Assembly (NCBI RefSeq): GCF_013141825.1
Contig: NZ_RZNH01000032.1
Coordinates: 1-64,000, forward strand
Direction of reading: 5' to 3'
DNA length: 64,000 bases
Source of the DNA: Marinifilum caeruleilacunae
GTDB lineage: Bacteria > Bacteroidota > Bacteroidia > Bacteroidales > Marinifilaceae
The notes below the pieces were generated by a model. It was not told the origin of the DNA and searched no databases. It worked only from the letters and a program-made list of their open reading frames with translations. Positions 29,901 to 51,304 of this stretch are shown piece after piece. Positions within the stretch are counted from its first letter, which is position 1. Each line of letters starts with the position of its first letter. Position numbers and translations under genes: made by a program.

Positions 29901-32360
29901 ATGTTTAAGCAAATGAACTCTGTTTTGCGCAGAGCTACTCTGTTAATTGTATTGCAATTTGTATGCTTTGTTGGTTTTTCTCAATTCAGTCTGAAAGGGA
30001 AAGTAACCGATAACAGTGGAAATGCTCTTCCGGGCGCAGCAATTGCAGTAAAAGGAACCTATTTAGGTACTGTTACAAATTCGTATGGAGAATATCAATT
30101 CAAAAATTTAAAAGCTGGCGATTACCAGTTGATTATCTCTTTTTTGGGGTATAAATCCATCGAAAAATCGATTGAACTAAAAGATTCGCAAGTTTTAGAT
30201 TTTGAATTATCACCTTCGGCCATATTGGCAGATGAGGTACTAGTGGCTGCAACCAGGGCAGGAAGTAAAACTCCGGTGGCAGTTACCAATGTAAAGAAAG
30301 AAGAAATTGCTTCTAAAAATATGGGAAGGGATATTCCGGTAATATTATCATCGACTCCTTCTTTTGTTAGCACAACAGATGCTGGTGCGGGTGTTGGATA
30401 TACAGGTTTTAGAGTGAGAGGAACCGATGCCAACAGAATTAATGTTACTATTGATGGAATTCCATTGAACGACTCCGAATCTCATGGTGTTTTTTGGGTG
30501 AATATGCCCGATTTTGCTTCATCGGTTGAAGACATTCAGATTCAAAGAGGGGTTGGTACATCTACCAACGGTGCAGCAGCATTCGGAGCAACAATTAATC
30601 TGCAAACTTCTAAAGTTTCTGAAGAAGCTTATGCTGAGCTTGCAAGTTCGGCAGGATCATTCAAAACTTTTAAGAATACCTTGAAGTTTGGTACCGGACT
30701 TAAAAATGGTTTTGCTTTTGATGCCCGTTTGTCAAAAATTACTTCTGATGGATTTATTGATAGAGCTGAATCGGATCTGCAATCGATATTTTTATCGGGA
30801 GGTTATTATGGTGAGAAAACAAGTATTAAAGCCAACTTCTTTACAGGAAAAGAGCAAACCTACCAGGCGTGGAATGGTGTTCCAAGCGTTCGTTTAAACA
30901 ATGATGAAGAGGGAATGCAACGTTATGCTGACCACTGGTTGGTGAGTCAGGATATCGTGGATCATATGAAAGCTTCTGACAGCAGAACTTACAATCAGTA
31001 TACCTACGAAAACGAAACTGACAACTATTGGCAAAAGCACAGTCAATTGTTTTTAACCCACCTTTTATCAGAAAAAACAAAACTGAATATCGGTTTACAT
31101 TATACACACGGAGAAGGCTACTACGAACAATACAAGCCAGAAGACAAGCTGAGTAAATACGGCTTGGATCCAATTGTAATAGGCGGAGAAACGATTGATC
31201 GAACAGATGTGATTAGAAGGAAATGGTTGAATAACGATTTTTATGGAGCGGTATTTTCTATCAGTCATTCTACCTCAACTTTAAATGTTGTTTGGGGTGG
31301 AGCCTGGAACAAGTATGATGGTGATCATTACGGAAGAATCCGCTGGATGAAAAATGCGGGTGATGCTTTTATCGATCACGAGTATTATTTCAATAACGGA
31401 ACTAAAAAGGATTACAACACCTATGTAAAAACCAATTTAAGTTTATCCGATGTGTTTAGCGTTTATGCAGACCTGCAACTTAGAGGAATTGATTATAAAA
31501 TTAAAGGAGTTGATGATGATTTTAGAGATTTAACGCAAGATCATGATTTCTTATTTTTTAATCCGAAAGCAGGATTGAACATCCAATTAAACAACAGTAA
31601 CAGAATATACGGCTCTTTCGCTGTTGCAAACAGAGAGCCGAACAGAAGCAATTATACTGATGCTGAAGTTGGAAAAACTCCAACAAGTGAAAGGTTGTTC
31701 GATTATGAATTTGGATACAAATACACAAGTGCAAAAGCATTTTTCGAAACCAATTTGTATTACATGGATTACAAAGACCAGTTGGTTCTTACCGGTCAAA
31801 TTAATGATGTGGGTAGTGCTATTATGGTGAATGTAGAAGACAGTTATCGAATGGGAATCGAAATTAGCGGGGGAATAAAAATTACCAAAGGATTGGATTG
31901 GTCAGGTAACTTAACCTTAAGTCGCAATAAAATAAAGAATTTTACTGAATATGTTGATGATTGGGATAATGGAGGACAAATTGCGACAGATCTTGGAACT
32001 ACCAATTTGGCCTTTTCACCTGAACTAAGTGCAAATTCGATGTTTACCTACAAGAATTCTGGTTTTATGGCTCAATTAAGTTCACAGTTCGTAGATGACC
32101 AGTATATCGATAATTCTTCTAGCGCAAGTAGAAAATTAGATTCTTATTTTGTATCAAACTTAAACCTGTCATACGAAATTAAATGTAATTTGATTAAGAA
32201 TGTGAAGCTGCATTTGCAGGTAAACAATTTGTTTGATGAAGAATATGAATCGAATGCCTGGATTTATAGCTATGTTTTAGGAGGGCAGCGATACGCAATG
32301 GATGGTTACTTCCCTCAAGCAGGAACAAATTTCCTGGCAGGTGTAACAGTACGATTTTAA
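29901..32360 (+). CDS. TonB-dependent outer-membrane receptor, probably for thiamine
   Basis: An 819-residue receptor that would import thiamine or a precursor across the outer membrane using TonB energy. A signal peptide (about 1-27, ending FVGFS-QFS) precedes a carboxypeptidase-regulatory-like beta-sandwich (GKVTDNSGNALPGAAIAVKG, about 33-115), a plug domain with FRVRGTDANRINVTIDGIP (about 172-190), and a 22-strand barrel with aromatic end YFPQAGTNFLAGVTVRF. The substrate is inferred from the TPP riboswitch just upstream and from the transporter and kinase that follow in the same operon, not from the sequence itself. The ATG at 29901 is followed by a second ATG four codons later, so the exact start is open. 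Confidence 0.88.
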   Translation: MFKQMNSVLRRATLLIVLQFVCFVGFSQFSLKGKVTDNSGNALPGAAIAVKGTYLGTVTNSYGEYQFKNLKAGDYQLIISFLGYKSIEKSIELKDSQVLDFELSPSAILADEVLVAATRAGSKTPVAVTNVKKEEIASKNMGRDIPVILSSTPSFVSTTDAGAGVGYTGFRVRGTDANRINVTIDGIPLNDSESHGVFWVNMPDFASSVEDIQIQRGVGTSTNGAAAFGATINLQTSKVSEEAYAELASSAGSFKTFKNTLKFGTGLKNGFAFDARLSKITSDGFIDRAESDLQSIFLSGGYYGEKTSIKANFFTGKEQTYQAWNGVPSVRLNNDEEGMQRYADHWLVSQDIVDHMKASDSRTYNQYTYENETDNYWQKHSQLFLTHLLSEKTKLNIGLHYTHGEGYYEQYKPEDKLSKYGLDPIVIGGETIDRTDVIRRKWLNNDFYGAVFSISHSTSTLNVVWGGAWNKYDGDHYGRIRWMKNAGDAFIDHEYYFNNGTKKDYNTYVKTNLSLSDVFSVYADLQLRGIDYKIKGVDDDFRDLTQDHDFLFFNPKAGLNIQLNNSNRIYGSFAVANREPNRSNYTDAEVGKTPTSERLFDYEFGYKYTSAKAFFETNLYYMDYKDQLVLTGQINDVGSAIMVNVEDSYRMGIEISGGIKITKGLDWSGNLTLSRNKIKNFTEYVDDWDNGGQIATDLGTTNLAFSPELSANSMFTYKNSGFMAQLSSQFVDDQYIDNSSSASRKLDSYFVSNLNLSYEIKCNLIKNVKLHLQVNNLFDEEYESNAWIYSYVLGGQRYAMDGYFPQAGTNFLAGVTVRF

Positions 32361-46071: not shown

Positions 46072-46076
46072 ATATA

Positions 46077-46104
46077 AAACCGATGCTTTCGCATCGGTTT
46101 TTTT
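46077..46104 (+). terminator. Terminator of the pseudouridine synthase gene
   Basis: AAACCGATGC (46077-46086) pairs with GCATCGGTTT (46091-46100) around a TTTC loop and is followed by T residues. Confidence 0.9.
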
Positions 46105-46147: not shown

Positions 46148-46494
46148 TGTTTTACAATAAAATATAAAATGGTTTAAGATAAGTTTTACTTGGAAAGGAT
46201 GAAAAAAGCCTTTGCGTGTTGTTTTTACTGGTAAATATTATTTTGACTTGTTACATAAATGTTAAACAGAGAATAGACTCCTGTATCTACCAAAAAGCCT
46301 AATTATAGGGTGTTAGGAGATTGCTGGAAAGGAGTTTGTATTTGGATTGTATTAAAATTATATTAATTTAGTAGGGCAATAATCTAACAATATATACCAA
46401 CATATATTCTTTTGGCAGTTGAATTAAATCTTGATTTTAAGTTATGGATTTGAGTTATTGACTAAACAATATGTGGGGTGAAATTGTTGGAATT

Positions 46495-46573
46495 GCCATT
46501 CGGGAATCAAATTTTATCCATTCTCTTCCCCGAATGGCTTGTAGCTTAGCTACTTTGGCAAAGGCAAAGCTAC
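46495..46573 (+). promoter_or_regulatory. Structured leader before the small Cys-peptide gene
   Basis: GCCATTCGGG (46495-46504) pairs perfectly with CCCGAATGGC (46529-46538), and GTAGCTT (46541-46547) with AAGCTAC (46567-46573), 68-146 bases before the ATG at 46641. The two adjacent hairpins are much more GC-rich than their surroundings. They could be a 5' regulatory RNA, a small RNA or an intergenic palindromic repeat. No known riboswitch pattern was recognised. Confidence 0.45.
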
Positions 46574-46640
46574 TAAACCGAGATGACTTGTGCAATTGGC
46601 AATTGTATGGGGAAGGATTTTTGCTGTTAAATTTCTTACT

Positions 46641-46826
46641 ATGAAAAAGAAAATTCTGAGTTTAATGTTTTTTGGAGTTTTGTTGATTGCTGCTGCACCT
46701 AAAAAAGCTGATGCAGCATGCATTGATGTAAATCTTTCTTGTTATGATGGTTATATGGTTTGTGGTTTAACTATGGAAACAGTATTAGAAGGAATAGCAT
46801 CAGCTGAAGAAGATTTGTGTGATTAA
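46641..46826 (+). CDS. Small exported four-cysteine peptide
   Basis: A 61-residue protein. The signal peptide is clear: MKKKILSLMFFGVLLIAAAP, then a cut likely after ADA at residue 25. The mature part of about 36 residues is acidic and has four cysteines at 27, 34, 41 and 60, the first three spaced exactly seven apart, and only acidic or neutral side chains. The start at 46641 was preferred to upstream ATG at 46590, which would give a non-secreted N-terminus. It lies 63 bases before two GLPGLI genes and an outer-membrane protein, so it may be a secreted peptide that the cluster handles. I do not recognise a named family. It resembles, in size and position only, other small signal-peptide proteins of Bacteroidota such as NVEALA proteins. 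Confidence 0.7.
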   Translation: MKKKILSLMFFGVLLIAAAPKKADAACIDVNLSCYDGYMVCGLTMETVLEGIASAEEDLCD

Positions 46827-46889
46827 TGTTTATACGATTGATTCCAAAATGGGATCAATCGTAGCTTTTTAACTTTAAAATTATTAGAG

Positions 46890-47732
46890 ATGTTTCGAAT
46901 TACATTGATTTTACTCTTGATAGTATTTTCTTTTTCAATTAATGCTCAAAATAAAATTAAAAATCATGAAGCAATAGATATTGCAAAACTTCGATGTACC
47001 TATTTGTTTACTTTTCAGCGTGATTCCACTAATGCTTTAAAGATAGGGAGTGAAAGGATGGATTTATTTATAGGAGAGAAGTGTTCAAGATATAAGAGTT
47101 ATGGTAGAATAAAAATGGATTCTATGATTCAAGATTTCGAAAATAGAGGAATTCCCATGGAAATTGCATTGGCCGATATTTCTATTTTTCCAAAATTGAA
47201 ATATGAACATCAAGTTTATAAAAATTTTCCTAAAGGATCATTTAGTGTATTTGATCGTGTACATAAAGATAAGTTTGTATATGATGAACCAATGGATTGT
47301 TTTAATTGGATTATAAAATCCGATACGGCTACAATTTTATCATATAAATGTCAGAAAGCCATAACAAATTATAAAGGTAGATCTTATGAGGCATGGTTCA
47401 CAAAGGAAATTCCATTAAGTGAAGGTCCATATAAGTTTCATGGTTTACCTGGCTTAATTGTTAAAATAGCTGATACTAAAAATCATTATTCTTTTGAGCT
47501 GTTATCAACGATAGTTCCTCCTAAAGGCACTTTGATTTATTTTCCAACTTATCCAACAATTTGTACAACTCGAGAAGGATTAATGAAAGTAAAGCGCGAT
47601 GCGAAACAAGATATCATTAAACGATTGGAGGATATGGGGGGTAGTTTTTCTGATCCAGAGACAAGAGAAAAAGCTAAAAAGCGAGCAATGGAAAAAGCTA
47701 GAAGAAGAAATAATCCAATTGAATTATTATGA
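46890..47732 (+). CDS. GLPGLI family protein 1
   Basis: A 280-residue exported protein with signal peptide MFRITLILLLIVFSFSINAQ. It carries the family-defining motif GLPGLI (about 184-189), here in YKFHGLPGLIVKI, plus upstream landmarks AWFTKEIP and CQKAITNYKGRSYEAWF that are also found in the paralogue. It ends in a basic Lys/Arg-rich helix (about 250-280). GLPGLI proteins occur in Bacteroidota, often beside a TonB-dependent-receptor-like protein, and have no proven function. The protein overlaps the next GLPGLI gene by four bases (ATGATG junction), so the two are translationally coupled. Confidence 0.85.
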   Translation: MFRITLILLLIVFSFSINAQNKIKNHEAIDIAKLRCTYLFTFQRDSTNALKIGSERMDLFIGEKCSRYKSYGRIKMDSMIQDFENRGIPMEIALADISIFPKLKYEHQVYKNFPKGSFSVFDRVHKDKFVYDEPMDCFNWIIKSDTATILSYKCQKAITNYKGRSYEAWFTKEIPLSEGPYKFHGLPGLIVKIADTKNHYSFELLSTIVPPKGTLIYFPTYPTICTTREGLMKVKRDAKQDIIKRLEDMGGSFSDPETREKAKKRAMEKARRRNNPIELL

Positions 47733-48574
47733 TGAAAAAACTAATAAATTTAACAATATTACTGTTTCTATTTACATTTGTTTATTCCCAAACAAAAACA
47801 TGCAACACAAAGATCATTGATCAAGCCAATTTAATTTGTATTTACACCCATCAATATCAAAGAGATTCTACAAACAAAGAAGATATTCGTAATGAGAATA
47901 TGTTATTACTTATAGGTAATAATGGTTCTAAATTTTTGAGTGAAAATTTAGTGAAGAAAGATTCTATGATATATGATATTGAGAAAAGAAATGTTCCTCT
48001 GGAAATAGCTGTTGCAGACATTTCTATATATCCAAGAACGAATTTTAATTATCAAATTTTTAAGAACTATAAAAAAGGAAAATTGGTATGCTTCGATCGA
48101 GTTTTTAATGATAAATACGAATATGAAGAAGATATGAACTCCTTGAATTGGAAAATTGAGATGGACACTGATAGTATTGCTGGAATGGAATGTCAAAAAG
48201 CGACTACCAAATATGCGGGAAGAGATTATATAGCTTGGTTTACCAAAGAAGTACCTGTTAACGAAGGGCCATATAAATTTCATGGCTTACCTGGATTAAT
48301 TGTAATGGTTGGTGATACCAAAAATCACTATGTTTTTAAGTTAAAATCAATATCTAAAACAAAAAAACAAGTAAATATCTACTATCCAATTCTTTATACA
48401 ACGGAGTCTACACGCGAGGGGGTAGTAAAAGCTAAATATGATGCGAATCAAAATATTGTGCAACGTTTGGAGCAAATGGGAGCGCGCTTTACTGATCCAC
48501 TTAAAAAGAAAGAGTTCAAGGAGCGTGCCCAAAGAAAAGCCAAACAAAGAAACAACCCAATGGAGTTGAGATAA
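47729..48574 (+). CDS. GLPGLI family protein 2
   Basis: A 281-residue paralogue of the protein just upstream, clearly alike over the whole length, with signal peptide MKKLINLTILLFLFTFVYSQ after an initial Met. It has GLPGLI at about 186-191 (YKFHGLPGLIVMV), AWFTKEVPVNEGPYKFHG, and a basic C-terminal helix with RAQRKAKQRNNPMEL. The duplication with overlapping genes suggests the two act together, perhaps as a heterodimer (inference). The next gene starts 22 bases later and is an outer-membrane protein. Confidence 0.85.
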   Translation: MMKKLINLTILLFLFTFVYSQTKTCNTKIIDQANLICIYTHQYQRDSTNKEDIRNENMLLLIGNNGSKFLSENLVKKDSMIYDIEKRNVPLEIAVADISIYPRTNFNYQIFKNYKKGKLVCFDRVFNDKYEYEEDMNSLNWKIEMDTDSIAGMECQKATTKYAGRDYIAWFTKEVPVNEGPYKFHGLPGLIVMVGDTKNHYVFKLKSISKTKKQVNIYYPILYTTESTREGVVKAKYDANQNIVQRLEQMGARFTDPLKKKEFKERAQRKAKQRNNPMELR

Positions 48575-48596
48575 TTATTACTGCAATAAACCATTC

Positions 48597-51263
48597 ATGC
48601 CAATTAATAAATCACGCATTTACGGGAAGTGTTTTACCTGTTTTGTAATTGTATTTTTCTTGTTTTGGGTACAGAATGCTCTTGCACAAACCAAAATATC
48701 GGGTAAAATTATCAGCGATAAAGGTGATGCATTGGAAAATATTCATGTACTGATACAAAAGCAGGTTAATGGAGGAATTGTGGCTTTTGCAATAAGCAAT
48801 GCAGAGGGAGAGTATCAAATTCAATTTTCTACCGAAAAAGACTCTGTCTATCTGAAAACTCAATCGCTGAATTATTCCAACCAGAATTTATGGGTGAGTA
48901 CCAAAAGCCATGTTGAGAATTTTACATTATATCCCGATGTTAAGGAAATAAAAGAAGTGAATGTAAAAGCTCCGGGAATTACTCAGCGTGGTGATACCTT
49001 ATCCTATTCGGTAGGTGTTTTCGCCAGTAAAAAAGATCAGGTGATTGCCGATGTGATCAACAAAATGCCTGGCCTTGAGGTAGAATCGGACGGTAGAATT
49101 CTATACCAGGGAACACCAATTCGTAAATATTATATAGAGGGTTTGGATTTGTTAGAAGGCAAATACAATTTGGCCAATAACAATTTACCAGCCCAAGCAG
49201 TGGCTTCGGTGCAGGTTCTCGAAAATCATGAACCCATTAAATTGCTGCGTAATGTAACCGCTACCGATAAGGCTTCCTTAAATATCAAGCTAAAACGGAA
49301 TATTACGCTAACAGGTAAGGCGCAAATGGGAACAGGTTTTACTCCTTTTCTTTGGAACGCCAATATTACCCCTATGCTGTTCAATAAAAAACAGCAATTT
49401 ATCTGTTCGTACCAGGCCAATAATACAGGGAAGGATGTAGCTTCCGATTTAAAAGTGCTTAGCATTGAAGATTTACTCGATAAAGTAGATAACGATACCG
49501 ATAAAGAGGAATTATTAGGCATCCAGGGATTATCTACGCCCAATTTTCAGAGCATGAGATATCTGGATAACAACATCCATTTGTTATCGAATAATTATTT
49601 ATTAAAGTTGAATAAGGATATACAACTTAAGGTAAACAGTTCTTATTTAAACGATTATCAGAAACATGAAGGTGGAAGGAAAAGTGAGTATTTTCTGGGT
49701 AAGGATACTGTTGTATTAAGTGAACATATCAGTAATAGCTTGAATAAACGCTCGCTTGTAAATGATTTTATTGTAACACAGAACTCCGATAAAAGCTATT
49801 TAAAAAACACTCTGAACTTTAAAGTCTATTGGGATGCTCAAATGGGTAATGTACAACAAGCTAGCGATAAAATAAGACAGGATTACGATAATCCATTTCA
49901 GTCATTTTCAAACAAACTAAAATGGATAAAACCCCTGGGCAAACGAATGTGGCAGTTCAATTCTTTTGTGGGATACAACAGGGCCCCACAAAGTTTGCAG
50001 ATACAGCCAGGTGTTTATTCCGATGTTTTAAATGAAGGCAAGCCATACAACGCGGTAATGCAGGAGGCCACGCACAAGGTTTTAAATGTTAATCAATCTG
50101 CAAGCCTGATCAATCGCGTGAAGCGATGGAGTTTTACCCATAAGTTGGGATATCAGTACAAACAGAAAGACTTCGAATCGAATATTTATACTCGAGAACA
50201 GGAACAGTTTGAAAATCTTGGGCTCGATTTTCAAAACCGATTGGAATTCAATAAGAACATGGTGTATGCAAGCGAAGGAGTTCAATACATAAGTGAGACC
50301 TTAAAGCTTTTTGCCGATTTACCTTTTAATTATTCCCGTTACAAGATTTGTGATAAACCTGCAAATGTTTCCTTGAAGAAAGAAAGCTTTTTATTTCAGC
50401 CACAACTTCGCTTGAATTACAAGCTTAATTCTTTTTTAGAGTGGAAAAATAGCTGGAAAAGAATAGATCGGATCAAAGACAATAGTCGGATTAATTATGC
50501 ACAGGTATTAGAAAACTATAGACGTTTGCAACATCGAGAAGCTGCTTTGGGCGAAACCAAAGGACAGAACATGGGGACAACATTATTTTATAAAAATCCC
50601 TTAAGCTCAGTTTTTATGCACATTGGTTATCGTTATACCGAAAGCAAAATGGATGTAATGCTTAATAATGAAATTCAGGACGATGGATCGATGAAAATAA
50701 AATGGGAAAATTACGATAACAATAGCTATACCCATAATTTATTTGCACAGGCAAGCAAATATGTGGGCAATTGGAAAACCAACTTTAGCCTAAAAGGGAA
50801 TTATTTTTCGAGTCGACAAAAAATGTTTTTGAACCAGCTTGTTAGCCCAATTAATAACGAGACTTACATTGTAAATTCCAAAATTACCACTGATGTATTC
50901 GAATGGTTGAACCTGGAATTTAAAAGTGAATTTACCTGGCTAAACTCGCAGATAAATAGGGGCGAAACCAATAAGGTAGAACAGCAGTTGCATAAAATGA
51001 ATATGATGGTGTTTCCCTGGGAAAGTCATTATTTTGGAAGTGCTGCCGAGTATTATAAAAACGAAGGAGCTGAAAGTCTGTTTCTCGATTTATTGTACCG
51101 ATATACTTTTAAAAATAAACGCACAAAATTGGAGTTGCACTGGCTGAATGTATTCGATAAATCTACTTATTCAAGTTATTTTGTCGATGAGTATTCAATT
51201 GTTGGGAACTACTATCAATTGCGTCCATCGCAGGTGCAAATCAATCTTAGTTTTTCGTTTTAG
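48597..51263 (+). CDS. TonB-receptor-like outer-membrane protein with carboxypeptidase-regulatory domain
   Basis: An 888-residue outer-membrane protein. A signal peptide or start helix (about 1-31) precedes a carboxypeptidase-regulatory-like domain (TKISGKIISDKGDALENIHV, about 32-120) and a plug-like region (QVIADVINKMPGLEVESDGR, then YYIEGLDLLEGKYNLANNNL, about 147-190). A barrel of aromatic-rich strands follows, ending QINLSFSF with the terminal Phe usual for outer-membrane barrels. It lies in the same run as the Cys-peptide and the two GLPGLI genes, an arrangement often seen for GLPGLI proteins. Whether it imports or exports a substrate cannot be decided from the sequence; no canonical TonB box was identified. 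Confidence 0.82.
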   Translation: MPINKSRIYGKCFTCFVIVFFLFWVQNALAQTKISGKIISDKGDALENIHVLIQKQVNGGIVAFAISNAEGEYQIQFSTEKDSVYLKTQSLNYSNQNLWVSTKSHVENFTLYPDVKEIKEVNVKAPGITQRGDTLSYSVGVFASKKDQVIADVINKMPGLEVESDGRILYQGTPIRKYYIEGLDLLEGKYNLANNNLPAQAVASVQVLENHEPIKLLRNVTATDKASLNIKLKRNITLTGKAQMGTGFTPFLWNANITPMLFNKKQQFICSYQANNTGKDVASDLKVLSIEDLLDKVDNDTDKEELLGIQGLSTPNFQSMRYLDNNIHLLSNNYLLKLNKDIQLKVNSSYLNDYQKHEGGRKSEYFLGKDTVVLSEHISNSLNKRSLVNDFIVTQNSDKSYLKNTLNFKVYWDAQMGNVQQASDKIRQDYDNPFQSFSNKLKWIKPLGKRMWQFNSFVGYNRAPQSLQIQPGVYSDVLNEGKPYNAVMQEATHKVLNVNQSASLINRVKRWSFTHKLGYQYKQKDFESNIYTREQEQFENLGLDFQNRLEFNKNMVYASEGVQYISETLKLFADLPFNYSRYKICDKPANVSLKKESFLFQPQLRLNYKLNSFLEWKNSWKRIDRIKDNSRINYAQVLENYRRLQHREAALGETKGQNMGTTLFYKNPLSSVFMHIGYRYTESKMDVMLNNEIQDDGSMKIKWENYDNNSYTHNLFAQASKYVGNWKTNFSLKGNYFSSRQKMFLNQLVSPINNETYIVNSKITTDVFEWLNLEFKSEFTWLNSQINRGETNKVEQQLHKMNMMVFPWESHYFGSAAEYYKNEGAESLFLDLLYRYTFKNKRTKLELHWLNVFDKSTYSSYFVDEYSIVGNYYQLRPSQVQINLSFSF

Positions 51264-51271
51264 AAAAACAA

Positions 51272-51304
51272 AAAACGGAAGCCCATCGGACTTCCGTTTT
51301 TTTT
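51272..51304. terminator. Bidirectional terminator of the GLPGLI cluster and cdd
   Basis: AAAACGGAAG (51272-51281) pairs with CTTCCGTTTT (51291-51300) around a 9-base loop, followed by T residues. It closes the rightward cluster and meets the end of leftward cdd at 51303. Confidence 0.88.

Follow-up and report, generated by a model that had tools for sequence, protein, structure and literature searches.

A four-gene group of Marinifilum caeruleilacunae lies on the plus strand at 46641-51263 of the 64,000-nucleotide stretch that we analyzed (contig NZ_RZNH01000032.1, positions 1 to 64,000; hereafter the window). It encodes a 61-residue peptide with four cysteines, two tandem GLPGLI proteins and a TonB-receptor-like outer-membrane protein of 888 residues. 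We put at about 45% the probability that this cassette makes a small secreted peptide, with the peptide as cargo, the GLPGLI proteins as its periplasmic carriers and the barrel as the gate that releases it. The peptide's role as cargo is well supported; its binding, its export rather than uptake, and the purpose of the cassette are what we infer. Among the roles that the initial annotation had offered for the peptide, that of a substrate fits best, because a hairpin behind its gene suggests excess, its mature part is variable, versions with a double-glycine leader occur, and C39 exporters are encoded nearby. The features are as follows.

46641..46826, plus strand: gene for the four-cysteine secreted peptide, 61 residues (ATG at 46641, stop codon at 46824-46826)
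46833..46863, plus strand: 14-bp terminator-like hairpin followed by GCTTTTT, directly 3' of the peptide stop codon; likely attenuator
46890..47732, plus strand: GLPGLI protein 1, 280 residues, predicted periplasmic LolA-like carrier (TIGR01200, 185 bits; fold prediction)
47729..48574, plus strand: GLPGLI protein 2, 281 residues, tandem duplicate (TIGR01200, 187 bits)
48597..51263, plus strand: TonB-receptor-like outer-membrane protein, 888 residues, with CarboxypepD/NTE domain, plug and barrel
46076..46101, plus strand: terminator-like hairpin 5' of the cassette
51270..51302, minus strand: terminator-like hairpin 3' of the cassette (listed for the minus strand; judged by eye, usable on both)

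These coordinates confirm the initial annotation, which had described the peptide with cysteines at residues 27, 34, 41 and 60, two overlapping GLPGLI genes and a TonB-receptor-like protein on one strand with gaps of no more than 63 bases. The peptide and the first GLPGLI gene are separated by 63 bases, the GLPGLI genes overlap by 4 bases, and 22 bases precede the barrel gene. The group can be one transcription unit, because terminator-like hairpins stand at both of its ends.

In the mechanism that we favor, the peptide would cross the inner membrane by the Sec pathway or, in some relatives, by way of the double-glycine leader typical of C39 ATP-binding cassette (ABC) transporters; it would then lose its leader, and its cysteines would hold it folded. 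The hairpin behind the stop codon would keep the peptide in excess over the products of the downstream genes. The GLPGLI proteins, with their predicted LolA/RseB-like fold, would bind the peptide in the periplasm and pass it to the barrel, which would release it at the cell surface, where its role would most likely be competition or signalling.

To relate the peptide to GLPGLI across genomes, a GLPGLI search was run in named genomes, and all 80-locus counts below refer to the best 80 of its 589 loci (G, L and C numbers are our handles for genomes, loci and contigs). A strict scan for a frame with a signal-like start and at least two cysteines, 0-250 bases upstream, was positive before 27 of the 125 GLPGLI genes in these loci versus 2 of 306 other long frames (Fisher p 8e-14), and before 0 of 61 barrel genes. 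By any criterion, 38 of the 80 loci carry a peptide; 8 of the 38 entered by eye (7 of these also matched by profile; L192 by eye alone) and 2 came from a separate scan. A barrel gene lies directly downstream in 56 of the 80 loci, and 32 have both peptide and barrel. Six peptide loci have no barrel, and two of them (L233 and L253) end just behind GLPGLI.

Profile searches extended this picture. With a core profile built from 23 peptides, 44 matches were obtained at an expectation value (E) of ≤ 0.5, all of them -3 to 287 bases upstream of GLPGLI, a test limited by the fact that 23 matches are the profile's own seeds and most searched loci had been chosen for holding GLPGLI. A further match, in G271 (L170), lies ∼135 bases before GLPGLI and is absent from that list. 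A six-peptide profile was searched against samples of the order (393 genomes), the phylum (395) and the family (57). Seven new places at E < 1e-5, found blind in whole genomes, all stand beside GLPGLI, and in each a barrel follows according to the profile; five of them, not among the six rows of the peptide profile, come from the order sample (G375, G365, two in G388, and G276), and the other two are in G738 and G715. Nine new contexts were chosen for their short open frames, and eight have GLPGLI beside the match; the ninth, G366 (E 0.011), has none. A 25-row profile matched 14 of the 395 genomes of the phylum sample at E ≤ 0.01. Those with E < 1e-9 (the window's genome, G715 and G738) have the match beside GLPGLI and a barrel, and the other 11 (E 6.7e-5 to 0.0084) have no GLPGLI there and appeared by eye to be other small peptides in some cases and signal peptides of long proteins in others. 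There was likewise no GLPGLI at G670 of the phylum sample (E 7.6e-5, within a 1987-residue frame), in a context check that left out G535 (5.1e-4) and included weaker matches only partly. Nor did GLPGLI adjoin the weak matches in G080:C17, G057 and G092 (E 0.13-0.60) among 97 relative genomes; of the remaining weak matches there, the context was examined for G021:C14 alone.

These data indicate that the link between peptide and GLPGLI is real, widespread and not universal. A GLPGLI gene can also occur without a peptide: 42 of the 80 loci are peptide-free by every criterion used, and of the six genomes from the window's own genus only three match the peptide profile. Peptide and GLPGLI occur together with no barrel detected in the sequenced stretch examined at L213, L222, L248 (Chryseobacterium) and L254 (Cruoricaptor). 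The initial annotation had proposed that peptide, GLPGLI and barrel belong together; the peptide's slot is indeed kept in many relatives, and the peptide-free loci and the four barrel-free peptide loci restrict the claim. In L213 and L222, the peptide and GLPGLI genes stand just before ribosomal-protein genes, and in L254 one gene further off (named by eye). L251 (Bacteroides pyogenes) has eight GLPGLI genes in one stretch, with no peptide detected.

The window peptide begins with a Sec-type signal (residues 1-25, judged by eye and hydropathy) that is likely cut after ADA and before A, leaving a mature part of ∼36 residues. Among the 97 relatives it has one strong match, with 59% identity, in G021, from another genus of the same family, and this relative also precedes a GLPGLI gene (L034). 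The ratio of nonsynonymous to synonymous substitution rates (dN/dS) between the two is ∼0.26 over the whole frame, 0.46 in the mature part and 0.09 in the signal, with dS near saturation, which bears out the purifying selection by which the short frame was to be judged. A chance small frame is ruled out by the enrichment in the upstream scan, the slot before GLPGLI and the dN/dS. Conservation is higher in the signal (76%) than in the mature part (47%), an uncommon finding for a Sec signal.

Peptides of the same plan stand upstream of GLPGLI clusters in the relatives G021, G003, G002 and G080, with two-cysteine forms in G035, and members of the family occur in Hymenobacter, Psychroflexus, Chryseobacterium, Thermophagus, Anditalea and many further Bacteroidota. 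All four cysteines are present in 34 of the 44 rows of the profile alignment. Among 23 relatives, the window peptide included, the C1-x6-C2 pattern is found in 22; the C2-C3 spacing is 6 in 10, 10 in 11, and 9 and 14 in one each; and the C3-C4 spacing is 18 in 16, 12 in 4, and 17 or 19 in 3. The exact seven-residue step singled out in the initial annotation is thus true of the window peptide and is only one of two common forms of the family (C2-C3 spacing 6 or 10). The C2-C3 steps of four (6, 10, 14) would fit a two-strand hairpin growing by two residues per side. C1 and C3 are lacking together in two L168 peptides (C3 by alignment, C1 by eye) and in the G035 peptides of L078/L079 (by eye), which suggests the disulfide pairing C1-C3 and C2-C4, in too few lineages to claim it. 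DsbA and VKOR gave no match in the window's genome; oxidation would therefore need another enzyme, or the cysteines would serve another use.

Family libraries did not place the peptide. The window peptide has no family in Pfam and one match in NCBIfam (E 0.17), which we judged to be chance, as were the single-member matches (E 0.008-0.09) that were all that 25 relatives, the window peptide included, gave against the family libraries. Seven further peptides gave one weak match, to FtsH_ext (E 3.6e-5, under its cut-off), and a comparison of the peptides with PDB sequences gave 22 weak matches, mostly antibody chains. By these searches, the window peptide belongs to a fast-evolving family with no credible match in Pfam, NCBIfam or PDB. 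Cys-rich exported peptides of another type, alike by eye and not adjoining GLPGLI, are encoded at L277 6089-6349 and L279 6234-6491.

The second half of the peptide changes faster than its neighbors. In the G035 paralogs, the first 31 residues are 97-100% kept and the rest are 59-61% identical, with dN/dS 0.48-0.58 there; in L168, identity is 80-90% over the first 30 codons and 48-56% beyond them, where dN/dS is 0.23-0.54. The GLPGLI genes of the G035 paralogs gave dN/dS 0.11-0.26. The pattern resembles that of a product which varies while the proteins handling it stay more constant. For the mature part, positive selection was considered and is not supported, as dN/dS is below 1 throughout. 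The same values bear on the idea that the peptide is antibacterial and each GLPGLI protein its cognate immunity protein. Arrays with one peptide gene before most GLPGLI genes (4/4 in L078, 3/4 in L168, and 3/4 in L249, where the contig end truncates the fourth) speak for such a toxin-immunity pair, which we nevertheless consider quite improbable: GLPGLI dN/dS (six pairs) is 0.11-0.26 against 0.23-0.58 in the second half of the peptide (six pairs), the GLPGLI core residues are invariant across 98 sequences, and 42 loci hold GLPGLI with no detected peptide.

The slot before GLPGLI can also hold a different kind of precursor. Cysteine-containing peptides with a double-glycine leader stand there in L236 (a metagenome-assembled genome (MAG) of Flavobacteriaceae), L249 (a Dysgonamonadaceae MAG) and L080 (G035), found by pattern and eye, and by eye for L080. 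Two L249 peptides pass the TIGR04149 cut-off; the three double-glycine peptides have no Pfam match. The order in L236 is peptide, GLPGLI, barrel, C39 ABC transporter, second double-glycine peptide and HlyD-like gene, the last named by eye and with no Pfam match; the second double-glycine peptide lies at L236 6583-6804, between the transporter and the HlyD-like gene. GLPGLI, barrel and C39 genes are contiguous in G027, where a HlyD-like gene follows, and in G008, and no peptide was seen before GLPGLI in either. L080 has a C39 gene close by, on the opposite strand. A C39 peptide-exporting transporter is thus found in or beside four GLPGLI clusters; the window's genome has three C39 matches, all on contigs other than that of the cassette. 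Because a GLPGLI gene can follow a peptide of either the Sec or the double-glycine type, these arrangements suggest that GLPGLI handles the peptide once it has passed the inner membrane.

The hairpin directly behind the peptide stop codon (46833-46863) is far more stable than chance (z -5.56; 0 of 200 shuffles as stable). Stable structures recur at this position: z is below -2 in 51 of 59 peptide-GLPGLI gaps (mean -3.95) versus 24 of 92 other gaps (mean -1.02), the 59 rows being not independent, since paralogs were kept after L174 and L171 had been dropped as copies of L187 and L253; the p value computed for this comparison is too small on that account. Coordinates entered by hand account for 20 of the rows used. 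The hairpin sequences differ among the gaps and the structure stays, and in L236 such a hairpin lies behind the double-glycine peptide too (by eye; outside the 59). A hairpin behind the first gene is usually a partial terminator giving more of the first product, and here it suggests an excess of the peptide over the products of the downstream genes. By a strict T-run rule, 20 of the 59 gaps versus 13 of the 92 controls look like full terminators; because only these 20 do so, protection of the mRNA by the hairpin is also possible.

An excess of peptide would be at odds with a peptide that is a small structural or regulatory part, for example a lid, staying unreleased on GLPGLI or the barrel. 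The constant gene order, with the peptide in the same slot before GLPGLI, would suit such a subunit. We regard this explanation as having little chance, no more than the immunity pair, given also the fast change in the second half of the peptide and the double-glycine precursors in the same slot with C39 transporters nearby.

The proposed carriers are clear members of the GLPGLI family (TIGR01200; Pfam Porph_ging), scoring 185 and 187 bits against a TIGR01200 cut-off of 50. They are 51% identical to each other with dN/dS 0.14, dS being near saturation, and have a signal-like N-terminus (by eye). Among the 97 relative genomes, 55 have a GLPGLI match at E ≤ 0.001 and 31 have one above the cut-off. 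That the family is without proven function holds: NCBIfam and Pfam give none, and in the portions of the literature consulted GLPGLI is mentioned in gene tables and lists only. The fold predicted for them resembles that of the LolA and RseB carriers and comes nearest to the N-terminal domain of PNGase F-II (PDB 4r4x and 4r4z), to which there is also detectable sequence similarity; that domain is part of an N-glycanase, whereas GLPGLI stands alone behind a peptide gene. The carriers LolA/LolB and RseB are likewise similar in predicted fold and in the signal-like N-terminus. They differ in that GLPGLI neighbors a peptide gene and the Pfam matches of the two window proteins included no LolA family up to E 1, in a search in which HMMER's filters remove most weak matches. 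PMC11885536, a study of LolA in Bacteroidota, is not among the papers found to contain the word GLPGLI.

The 888-residue protein has the plug domain and large barrel of a TonB-dependent receptor, and its predicted model shows plug and barrel as in the importers FhuA and BtuB. The sequence IKEVNVKA, a candidate TonB box, precedes the plug, and such a pattern is found in 31 of 47 aligned proteins. The importer-like model speaks for the main rival of the carrier reading, the subunit and immunity explanations being weaker: the peptide would exit by another route, and the barrel would import it, either free or carrying a ligand such as a metal, to GLPGLI as a periplasmic receptor, like ligand-sensing proteins of the RseB fold. 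In L236 and G027, the C39 transporter together with the HlyD-like protein might suffice for peptide export; a sensor kinase and response regulator, named by eye, adjoin the G027 cluster; and four cysteines in a genome with no DsbA or VKOR match could bind metal. TolC was not seen by eye near G027, where no search aimed at TolC was made. We nevertheless judge uptake unlikely. For a peptide exported by Sec, no exit besides the barrel is encoded in the window cassette (routes elsewhere in the genome were not searched), several peptides share a single barrel in L168, L191 and L249, and the variable second half and two-cysteine forms suit a metallophore poorly.

Release through the barrel, as the carrier reading has it, has a counterpart in the portion of PMC8939145 consulted, where TonB-receptor-like proteins are predicted as exporters of graspetides. 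Clusters for graspetides and TIGR04149-type ribosomally synthesized and post-translationally modified peptides also share fast-evolving precursors with the cassette; unlike them, the window peptide has no TIGR04149 match, and no modifying enzyme was recognized by eye beside the cassette. The nearest functional neighbor of the window peptide is the Bacteroidetocins, which the consulted part of PMC6671954 describes as small secreted four-cysteine peptides of the same phylum. They are 42 residues long when mature and carry a double-glycine leader, and the adjoining genes encode a thiol oxidoreductase, a membrane protein and a transporter of the C39 type. The window peptide differs in its Sec-type leader (by eye) and in having GLPGLI and barrel as partners, and no thiol oxidoreductase was recognized by eye among the flanking frames. 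In the open-licence literature, we found no paper joining GLPGLI with a peptide.

A broader proposal, which we advance tentatively and rate below the carrier reading itself, is that GLPGLI and barrel form an undescribed outer-membrane delivery pathway of Bacteroidota, in which a LolA-fold carrier would bring Cys-stapled peptides, exported by Sec or C39, to a TonB-powered secreting gate. GLPGLI is widespread in relatives, and neither Pfam nor NCBIfam assigns it a function; its recurrent peptide partner, its predicted carrier-like fold and the likely switch of expression make that function testable. The small secreted peptides themselves form a family missing from both libraries, and they may act in competition or signalling.

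The genes flanking the cassette, named by eye from their translations, are pseudouridine-synthase-like and, on the opposite strand, cytidine-deaminase-like. The region upstream of the peptide (46465-46640) has no special RNA fold against shuffles (z -0.92) and no second copy in the genome; inverted repeats were seen by eye 5' of the peptide at 46488-46600 of the window (cattcggg...cccgaatg plus a second pair). The window shows no enrichment of the motif TAnnTTTG (56 occurrences versus 78 expected). In the window's genome, a third GLPGLI gene (C136, L003) stands apart, by eye with no such peptide before it. A second frame matching the barrel profile, of 819 residues, lies at 29901-32360 of the window.

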